NCBI RefSeq assembly: GCF_014203355.1
Contig: NZ_JACHIR010000001.1
Coordinates: 1,490,038-1,554,037, forward strand
Reading direction: 5' to 3'
DNA: 64,000 bases
Source of the DNA: Kutzneria kofuensis
GTDB taxonomy: Bacteria > Actinomycetota > Actinomycetes > Mycobacteriales > Pseudonocardiaceae
A program made the position numbers and the translations under genes. The first letter of the stretch is position 1. Each line of letters begins with the position of its first letter. The notes beneath the pieces were generated by a model. That model saw only the letters and a list, made by a program, of their open reading frames with translations, had not been told where the DNA came from and searched no databases. Shown here piece by piece: positions 5,928-59,448 of the stretch.

Positions 5928-5943
5928 CTTTCCTCCTCTTTCT

Positions 5944-6065
5944 CCGCGCGTCCCGCGCGGGGCGAGGCCGCCCAACGCGGCCGATGCCTTCCCTCGGCTT
6001 TTCTCGATCGATGGACAGACTCGATCGAGAAAAGCCCGCGGTCCAGGCATCGGCGGCGGCCTCGC
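5944..6065. repeat. Structured dispersed element, copy 1
   Basis: A 122-bp element. It begins with a CCGCGCG/CGCGCGG hairpin (5944-5960). An outer stem GCGAGGCCGCC/GGCGGCCTCGC follows, then a second stem GCCGATGCC/GGCATCGGC, an asymmetric internal loop (TTCCCT on one side, CGCGGTCCA on the other), and a 16-bp apical hairpin (5996-6011 with 6021-6036) closed by the loop TGGACAGAC. Copy 2 at 33564-33682 keeps the architecture and loop sequences. Five pairs in the apical stem differ between copies, all with compensating changes. Here it sits between the divergent aminotransferase and pucR genes, inside the aminotransferase leader. Confidence 0.85.
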
Positions 6066-25211: not shown

Positions 25212-25264
25212 GCCACATGCGCTTCCCAGGTGGCACCTGGGCGCACATGGGAAGCGCATGTGGC
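25212..25264. repeat. Long palindrome, CCACATGCGCTTCCC family, copy 1
   Basis: Outer arms GCCACATGCGCTTCCCA and its perfect complement (25212-25228 with 25248-25264) enclose an inner palindrome CCAGGTG-G-CACCTGG. It lies between two convergent genes, 15 and 13 bases from their stops, and would act as a bidirectional terminator. The same outer arm recurs at 40413-40463. Confidence 0.75.
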
Positions 25265-32065: not shown

Positions 32066-33556
32066 ATGCGCACCCGAGTGCTGTTGACTCTCGCTGTCGC
32101 GGCCGCCGCGGCAGTCCTGCCGATCTCGAGCACGGCCACCGCCGCCCCGGCGGCGCCGGTGTCCCCGGCCCAGCCGCCGAATCCGACCACCGTGCACGAG
32201 TGGCTGACCACCCCGGGCGTGGAGACGCCGACGGACGTGCGGTTGCCGCTCAACAGCACCGTGACCAAGACCCCGGTCACCGTGCACGTGGACCCGAACG
32301 TCAGATACCAGACGGTGTCCGGCTTCGGCGCGGCGATCACCGACTCCTCGGCGCACGTGCTCTACGGCCTGACGCCGGAGAACCGGGCCGAGGTGATGAA
32401 GAACCTGTTCGACCCCGAGGCCGGCGCCGGCATCGACTTCCTGCGGCAGCCGATCGGCGCCTCGGACTTCGCCGTCGGCCAGGACTACAGCTACGACGAC
32501 CTGCCGGCCGGCCAGACCGACTACCAGATGCGGCACTTCTCCATCGCCCACGACGAGGCGCAGATCCTGCCGCTGCTGCGGCAGGCCCGGGGGCTCAACC
32601 CGCACATCCAGATCGTCGCCAGCCCGTGGAGCATGCCCGGCTGGATGAAGACGTCCGGCTCCATGATCGACGGCAAGCTGATCGACGACCCGAAGATCTA
32701 CCGCGCCTACGCGCTGTACCTGGTGAAGTTCGTCCAGGCCTACCAGCGGGCCGGCGTGCCGGTGGACTACCTCACCGTGCAGAACGAGCCGCAGGCGTTG
32801 GAGCGCAAGAACTATCCCGGCACCGACCTGTCCTGGGAGCAGGAGGCCAAGGTGATCGAGGCGCTCGGGCCGGCACTGCGCGCCGCCGGGCTGCGCACCA
32901 AGATCCTCGCCTTCGACCACAACTGGTCCGAGCACCCCGGTGACATCTCCTCACACCAGCGCGCCGACGAGGACCCGGAGCCGAACTACCCGTACGACCT
33001 GCTGGCCACCGACGCCTACCGCTGGGTCGCCGGCACCGCCTACCACTGCTACTACGGCGACCCGACCGCGCAGACCGGGCTGAAGGCGGCCTTCCCCGGC
33101 AAGGACATCTTCATGACCGAGTGCGAGGGCGGCGACTCCGCCACGATCATCGGCGTGATGCAGAACTGGGGCCGCAGCTCCATCGACTGGAACATCGCGC
33201 TGGACGAGAACCACGGCCCGCACCTGGGCGGCTGCGGCAGCTGCAACGGCACGATCACCGTCAACTCGGTGTCCAAGGCCGTGACCTACAACGACCAGTA
33301 CCGGGACATCGAGCACTTCTCCAAGTTCGTGCCGACCGGCGCCACGCACATCGCCAGCACCGTCGACACCAACTCCAGCAAGGGCGCGCCGCTGACCACG
33401 GTCGCGTTCACCAACCCGGACCGCTCCACCACCCTGGTGGCCCTCAACACCGGCACGACGACGCAGACCTTCACCGTCGTCTACGGCACGCACTCCTTCG
33501 ACGCCACCCTGCCCGCCGGCGGCACCGTCACCTACCAGTGGGCCCCCATCCACTGA
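32066..33556 (+). CDS. Secreted glycoside hydrolase family 30 enzyme
   Basis: A 496-residue exported enzyme with a Sec signal (MRTRVLLTLAVAAAAAVLPISS, cleaved near ATAAPAA). The GH30 opening is RYQTVSGFGAAITDSSAHVL. The acid/base Glu is in DYLTVQNEPQAL and the nucleophile Glu in FMTECEGGDS. The C-terminal beta-sandwich (about 420-496, THIASTVDTNS ... GGTVTYQW) is normal for GH30. Substrates in the family include beta-glucosyl, beta-fucosyl, xylan and beta-1,6-glucan; the loop set resembles the glucosylceramidase/endo-beta-1,6-glucanase group. The frame is open from 31922, but ATG 32066 begins the signal peptide. Confidence 0.92.
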   Translation: MRTRVLLTLAVAAAAAVLPISSTATAAPAAPVSPAQPPNPTTVHEWLTTPGVETPTDVRLPLNSTVTKTPVTVHVDPNVRYQTVSGFGAAITDSSAHVLYGLTPENRAEVMKNLFDPEAGAGIDFLRQPIGASDFAVGQDYSYDDLPAGQTDYQMRHFSIAHDEAQILPLLRQARGLNPHIQIVASPWSMPGWMKTSGSMIDGKLIDDPKIYRAYALYLVKFVQAYQRAGVPVDYLTVQNEPQALERKNYPGTDLSWEQEAKVIEALGPALRAAGLRTKILAFDHNWSEHPGDISSHQRADEDPEPNYPYDLLATDAYRWVAGTAYHCYYGDPTAQTGLKAAFPGKDIFMTECEGGDSATIIGVMQNWGRSSIDWNIALDENHGPHLGGCGSCNGTITVNSVSKAVTYNDQYRDIEHFSKFVPTGATHIASTVDTNSSKGAPLTTVAFTNPDRSTTLVALNTGTTTQTFTVVYGTHSFDATLPAGGTVTYQWAPIH

Positions 33557-33563
33557 GTTTTTG

Positions 33564-33682
33564 CCGCGCGTTCCGCGCGGGGCGAGGCCGCCATCAAGCC
33601 GGCGCCTTCCCTTGCCACAGCTCGATCGATGGAAAGACTCGATCGAGCTGTGGCCGCGGTCCAGGCTCCGGCGCGGCCTCGC
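33564..33682. repeat. Structured dispersed element, copy 2
   Basis: A 119-bp copy of the element at 5944-6065, in the same orientation. The 5' CCGCGCG hairpin, the GCGAGGCCGC/GCGGCCTCGC outer stem, the TTCCCT and CGCGGTCCA internal-loop sequences and the core CTCGATCGATGG are kept. The apical arms are GCCACAGCTCGATCGA (33614-33629) and its perfect complement (33639-33654), where copy 1 has GGCTTTTCTCGATCGA; all five differing positions are compensated. The second stem has one C-T mismatch. It starts seven bases after the GH30 stop and ends 15 bases before the stop of the convergent glutamate-binding gene. Confidence 0.85.
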
Positions 33683-40397: not shown

Positions 40398-40412
40398 CCC
40401 CTCCTGCTTCCC

Positions 40413-40463
40413 CCACATGCGCTTCCCCTGTGGCATCAGGCGCCACAGGGGAAGCGCATGTGG
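40413..40463. repeat. Long palindrome, CCACATGCGCTTCCC family, copy 2
   Basis: Two perfect 22-base arms (40413-40434 with 40442-40463) begin CCACATGCGCTTCCCC and are separated by seven bases. The first 15 bases of the arm are the same as in the copy at 25212-25264, but the inner part is different. It stands 16 bases after the RibD-like stop and probably ends that transcript. Confidence 0.75.
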
Positions 40464-40677
40464 CGTTGGGGGTGGGGGCTTGCCGACGCGCCACTGCCAG
40501 CGCCGACGCGCTTGTGGCATCGGCGGTTCAGCCCGTCCGGCGGCCGATGTTGGGCCGTTCGCGGGCTGACCCCGGGACCGGTTTCTGCCGATACGATCGG
40601 CTCGACGAGCCCGCGCCGGTCGATGACGTGATCTAATGATCTTGTTGTCGGCTGAAGCAGTTCGGTCGGGGGTGAGC

Positions 40678-59342: not shown

Positions 59343-59384
59343 TCGAGCTACCCCACCGCCACCTTCGGCCACGACGTGAAGATA

Positions 59385-59429
59385 GGAACGGACCATTCCT
59401 CAACTCGGAGTTGAGGAATGGTCCGTTCC
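59385..59429. repeat. Perfect 45-base palindrome between convergent genes
   Basis: Two 22-base arms (GGAACGGACCATTCC at the outer part, CTCAACTC toward the middle) pair without mismatch around one G. It lies 42 bases after the thioesterase and 19 bases after the livF stop, so it can terminate both. The inner part matches the palindrome at 38547-38599. Confidence 0.8.
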
Positions 59430-59448
59430 GAACTCGCTCGGGGCGGGG

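Follow-up and report, generated by a model that had tools for sequence, protein, structure and literature searches.

A hairpin sequence present twice in a 64,000-nucleotide stretch of the Kutzneria kofuensis genome (the window) belongs to a family with many copies in this and other actinomycetes. We favor, with a probability of about two in three, the view that these copies are a non-autonomous mobile palindromic DNA element of ∼135 bp whose arms are kept Watson-Crick complementary as DNA. Tens of intergenic copies are present per genome, the equivalent sites in sister species are mostly empty, units occur head to tail, and copies show no strand bias. Moreover, the stems are almost exclusively Watson-Crick paired, and their changes at sites shared between species are paired ones.

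Architecture and distribution of the family

A preliminary description of this DNA had placed two structured copies at positions 5944-6065 and 33564-33682. These coordinates are correct, and the pieces described (a CCGCGCG/CGCGCGG 5′ hairpin, two nested stems, an internal loop with TTCCCT on one strand and CGCGGTCCA on the other, and a 9-nt loop closed by a 16-bp apical stem) are found in both copies. Likewise, each of the five apical differences between them (GGCTTTTC versus GCCACAGC) is matched on the opposite arm. The predicted fold is stable on both strands of both copies (z −5.4 to −7.3), with none of 200 shuffled sequences equally stable. The complete plan comprises a 13-nt lead, a 7-bp hairpin, and then a long hairpin whose internal loop (TTCCCTC/GTCCA) is conserved and whose apex is variable (Table 1).

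Table 1. Parts of the two element copies in the window.
Feature	Positions	Strand	Basis
Copy 1 lead, degenerate: TCCTCTTTCT versus consensus CTGTGCTTTTG / CTGTGTTTGATTG	5931..5943	+	lead alignment across copies; sequence
Copy 1 hairpin 1, CCGCGCG TCC CGCGCGG	5944..5960	+	fold; covarying helix 1
Copy 1 outer stem (stem 2) 5′ arm; partner 6056-6065	5962..5971	+	fold, covariation
Copy 1 stem 3 5′ arm; partner 6046-6054	5980..5988	+	fold, covariation
Copy 1 internal loop 5′ strand TTCCCTC, a sequence also kept in other families of the class	5989..5995	+	
Copy 1 apical hairpin: 16-bp stem, 9-nt loop TGGACAGAC, variable 8-mer GGCTTTTC and exact complement	5996..6036	+	sequence, fold
Copy 1 internal loop 3′ strand CGCGGTCCA	6037..6045	+	
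Copy 1 stem 3 3′ arm (6046-6054) and outer stem 3′ arm (6056-6065); element 3′ end	6046..6065	+	
Copy 2 lead CACTGAGTTTTTG; contains TGA stop of upstream glycosyl hydrolase gene	33551..33563	+	
Copy 2 hairpin 1	33564..33580	+	sequence, fold
Copy 2 outer stem 5′ arm (33582-33591) and stem 3 5′ arm (33598-33606)	33582..33606	+	
Copy 2 internal loop 5′ strand TTCCCTT	33607..33613	+	
Copy 2 apical hairpin: 16-bp stem, 9-nt loop TGGAAAGAC, variable 8-mer GCCACAGC and exact complement	33614..33654	+	
Copy 2 internal loop 3′ strand CGCGGTCCA (33655-33663), stem 3 3′ arm (33664-33672), outer stem 3′ arm (33673-33682)	33655..33682	+	

Searches of the genome and of other Pseudonocardiaceae reveal that these two copies are part of a family of many. 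A DNA search yields 24 matches in the K. kofuensis genome (G000), and a covariance model built from 26 copies (R1) yields 46 at E ≤ 0.01. Five other genomes of the genus carry the family, including those of Kutzneria sp. CA-103260, K. buriramensis and Kutzneria sp. 744. With a model that includes the lead (R2), matches are present in 89 of 390 Pseudonocardiaceae genomes, representing 8 of 46 genera, and in 6 further genomes from a class-wide sample (five in one family and one in another), although the E-values of these models are rough and the numbers of matches per genome in these scans are capped. Plasmids and phages gave no family match, and two pattern hits in viral contigs were judged to be chance. 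Rfam contains no match at the gathering score and nothing credible at relaxed thresholds, and no named repeat in the papers that could be searched matches the family.

Some copies are short (∼120 nt), others differ in their apex, and long forms have an extended apical arm. Among 14 short copies there are 13 different variable 8-mers, nearly always accompanied by the exact complement. The 13-nt lead 5′ of hairpin 1 is conserved as CTGTGCTTTTG in Kutzneria and as CTGTGTTTGATTG elsewhere. In head-to-tail arrays of genome G183 the terminal GGCCTCG joins CTGTGTTGGATTG directly, and more tandem arrays are present in genomes G019 and G183. Tandem units measure 131 and 136 bp and have the end of one joined to the lead of the next. 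Such arrays show that the lead is part of the element. The internal-loop strands TTCCCTC and GTCCA are kept in families far from Kutzneria; this sequence is conserved in most branches, while some members in other genera form a continuous stem that lacks the loop.

Genomic context and site occupancy

Copies are intergenic. Among 55 whose neighborhoods were called with a home-made gene finder, 16 lie between convergent genes, 15 are same-sense, 16 are antisense and 8 lie between divergent genes, with no orientation preference relative to the neighboring genes. Unrelated housekeeping genes adjoin tens of copies. Copy 1 has a class-III aminotransferase gene on one side and a divergent PucR-type regulator on the other, and the convergent genes around copy 2 encode a GH30 hydrolase and a solute-binding protein. 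Two copies (L043 and L045; G000:C1:1523601 and 6313858) are beside the 3′ ends of related solute-binding-protein genes, and a third such case is present in G109. Elements of different genera (L066 and L076) also occur at the stop codon of apparently the same gene, both ending in TACTGAG.

The site of copy 1 is empty in five relatives. At the site of copy 2 the element is absent from four relatives, which carry a different perfect palindrome between the same convergent genes. When 22-23 further sites were traced into the relatives G142 and G057, most were found empty, several with just 1-20 bp between the flanks; polarity (gain here versus loss in the relatives) is assumed for most of these sites. 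Exact insertion boundaries are unreadable because the intergenic flanks are too diverged, and no target duplication was seen at comparable sites with such flanks. In one case (L139:770-800 of G142) an apparent internal-deletion remnant is present where G000 carries a full copy. In K. buriramensis (L032:4686-5882), two inverted copies 1 kb apart flank a gene with a MerR-like start, and each has ∼20 bp of matching flank on both sides. Similar extended flanks are present at L079, L089 and L037.

Stop codons adjoin many copies, sometimes inside the lead, and of 31 upstream genes read in the same sense, about 19 stop within 16 nt of the element. Such proximity would suit a bidirectional transcription terminator or 3′-end protector whose folding in the transcripts of both strands restricts its pairs to Watson-Crick, with spread being secondary. 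The same can be said of the convergent genes around copy 2 and the substitute palindrome of the four relatives, of a shared site (L038/L137) that holds an inverted copy in G142 and a plain terminator-like hairpin in G057, of the placement of five of the seven long palindromes in the window between convergent genes, and of the bidirectional transcript ends known in Streptomyces (PMC8269248). However, location is not restricted to gene ends, as the eight copies between divergent genes include copy 1 of the window, and no U-tract follows the element. Moreover, a palindrome is present at just 6 of 31 empty sites versus 12 of 180 random windows, and the conserved lead, the internal-loop sequence and the head-to-tail arrays are left unexplained. 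We therefore regard this explanation of the family as unlikely, although at some sites the element may act as a bidirectional terminator for its host. A general rule of insertion into terminators was likewise rejected, since palindromes are only weakly enriched at empty sites.

Other palindromes are also present in the window. A second family (CCACATGCGCTTCCC ... GGGAAGCGCATGTGG) with a variable apex occurs at 25212-25264 and 40411-40465, each copy ∼14 nt past a stop codon. Long palindromes of a GGAAGG type lie between convergent genes at 2903-2947 and 59383-59431. This type is also found at the copy 2 site of the relatives, where it varies with near-exact complementarity.

Several sites shared between species hold different subfamilies (L039/L138, L042/L140, L061/L154 and L062/L155). 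Together with the inverted copy at L038/L137, these imply re-use or conversion of sites. Such occupancy is not expected from simple insertion and counts against the mobile-element reading. It would be accommodated if the sequence were not mobile as such and instead spread and were replaced by ectopic gene conversion between hairpin sites, as the mosaic copies at L061/L154 also suggest. However, many sites in relatives are without any hairpin, leaving nothing to convert, and the element ends are conserved in tandem arrays. Conversion as the sole means of spread is accordingly quite improbable.

Covariation and pairing chemistry

Both arms of the stems change together far more often than chance predicts. 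In 26 short copies, 113 cells are changed on both sides compared to 33 in shuffled controls, and a wider set of copies gives 302 double-change cells compared to 81 in shuffles and 41-71 in slid controls. Conserved loops accompany this covariation, so the copies are not simple palindromes. The preliminary description took covarying stems and conserved loops as the mark of a selected structure; both are indeed present, but covariation alone is no proof of selection on an RNA in this case.

The pairing chemistry bears directly on this point. Across 3570 pair cells from 86 distinct rows, 95.2% are Watson-Crick, 0.9% are G-T (33) and 1.3% are A-C (45). By contrast, the acceptor and T stems of 29 tRNAs from the same genome contain 24 G-T and no A-C combinations in 348 cells (Fisher p 1e-7 for the contrast). 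Although the alignment was fitted to the model, this fit gives no reason for A-C to equal G-U in frequency. The covariation is real but is not RNA-like, as G-U is no commoner than A-C. Selection for an RNA fold on one strand should favor G-U over A-C, and the pairing of the element thus speaks against a structured non-coding or cis-regulatory RNA selected for its fold. A strong and stable fold, huge covariation and a conserved internal-loop sequence are features that such an RNA would share. However, the absence of strand bias relative to genes and of an Rfam match, the tens of copies beside unrelated housekeeping genes, and the variable presence at a given site between species make such an RNA very improbable. 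Of the three options originally offered, the two RNA alternatives fare poorly on these grounds and because of the copies between divergent genes, while a mobile element recognized as a hairpin gains from the dispersed copies, the empty sister sites and the tandem units.

At three sites G000 and a sister species carry the same element (L040/L069, L044/L141 and L041/L092). Comparison of these copies reveals seven double changes and one single change in 126 stem pairs versus nine changes in 111 unpaired positions. For five of these double changes a G-U intermediate is impossible (T-A to G-C three times, G-C to C-G, and C-G to G-C). That double changes arise at about the single-site rate suggests, from these few events, that both arms were changed in one event, for example by template switching (PMC8794818) or by hairpin repair. 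Inversion of the loop, which is a mark of template switching, was not found among short-form copies, where the number of inverted strings (seven) equals the number of antisense matches (seven). Template switching across the whole loop is thus not seen.

With tens of copies per genome in many species, the family offers a large body of natural data on the ways in which long palindromes remain exact. Because paired changes are about as frequent as unpaired ones in the shared copies compared, and most have no possible G-U intermediate, correction of one arm to the other in a single event is directly testable. The family also serves as a warning that strong covariation need not imply a functional RNA.

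Proposed mobilization and relation to known systems

For the mobile-element reading, we envision a trans-acting enzyme that would recognize a folded single strand or cruciform through the lead, hairpin 1 and the TTCCCTC/GTCCA internal loop. This enzyme would insert the element between genes, often beside stop codons or at the foot of another hairpin, without clear target duplication. Complementarity of the arms might be maintained by copying one arm onto the other, through template switching or hairpin repair, at replication or at transposition. In addition, selection might possibly favor a hairpin that functions in either direction.

The family, which is absent from Rfam, implies a mobilizer in antibiotic-producing actinomycetes. 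No mobilizing enzyme was found in our searches, and gene-bearing copies are not known. Full-length PF01797 (Y1/RAYT) protein is absent from 13 of 14 carriers tested, including K. kofuensis, whose only match is a 33-position fragment; 12 of the 13 other carriers have no match at all. The Y1/RAYT transposase was therefore rejected as the mobilizer. Inspection of intervals between close copies, where an autonomous version might reside, revealed only housekeeping genes, and a 4-kb interval in G723 has no transposase-like ORF by eye. A parent insertion sequence with the same ends was sought through apical-stem patterns, whose hits were known elements or chance-like. More tentatively, the family could represent a RAYT-independent and previously undescribed class of actinomycete mobile hairpin DNA, in which the enzyme reads the lead and internal loop and the arms are rewritten pairwise in single events, so that sequence drift leaves the palindrome exact.

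Among known repeats, MITEs of DDE insertion sequences are non-autonomous, gene-less and present in many copies with inverted repeats. The Kutzneria element shares these attributes, but no parent insertion sequence was found and no clear target duplication seen, and it differs in its one-sided lead and head-to-tail joints. No integron attC core consensus was noticed by eye in the element.

Other systems resemble the element in part. Mitochondrial double-hairpin or repetitive hairpin-forming elements are repeated hairpins that invade intergenic regions (PMC2800124), although they reside in organelle genomes and the likeness is one of description. Actinomycete bidirectional transcript ends carry GC-rich 3′-end hairpins on opposite strands (PMC8269248), whereas the element also lies between divergent genes and has a fixed multipart architecture with a conserved lead. 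Hairpins corrected by template switching, with both arms changed to match in one event, have been described for RNA genes (PMC8794818), while the present case concerns a mobile repeat in which no loop inversion is seen.

In style, the element resembles REP and REPIN sequences moved by Y1 (RAYT, IS200-like) transposases in Pseudomonas and E. coli, which are short dispersed extragenic hairpins with tandem clusters and compensatory changes in a variable stem (PMC3116915). The Kutzneria family likewise consists of dispersed extragenic palindromes with clusters and compensatory changes. However, membership fails because nearly all tested carriers lack the transposase, and this reading is largely refuted and very improbable. 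The element also differs in its length of ∼135 bp, its separate 5′ hairpin and its conserved internal loop, and has its 13-nt lead where REPs carry a GTAG-type tetranucleotide. It is best filed as REPIN-like in behavior but not as a REPIN, and thus as a variant form of mobile hairpin DNA.
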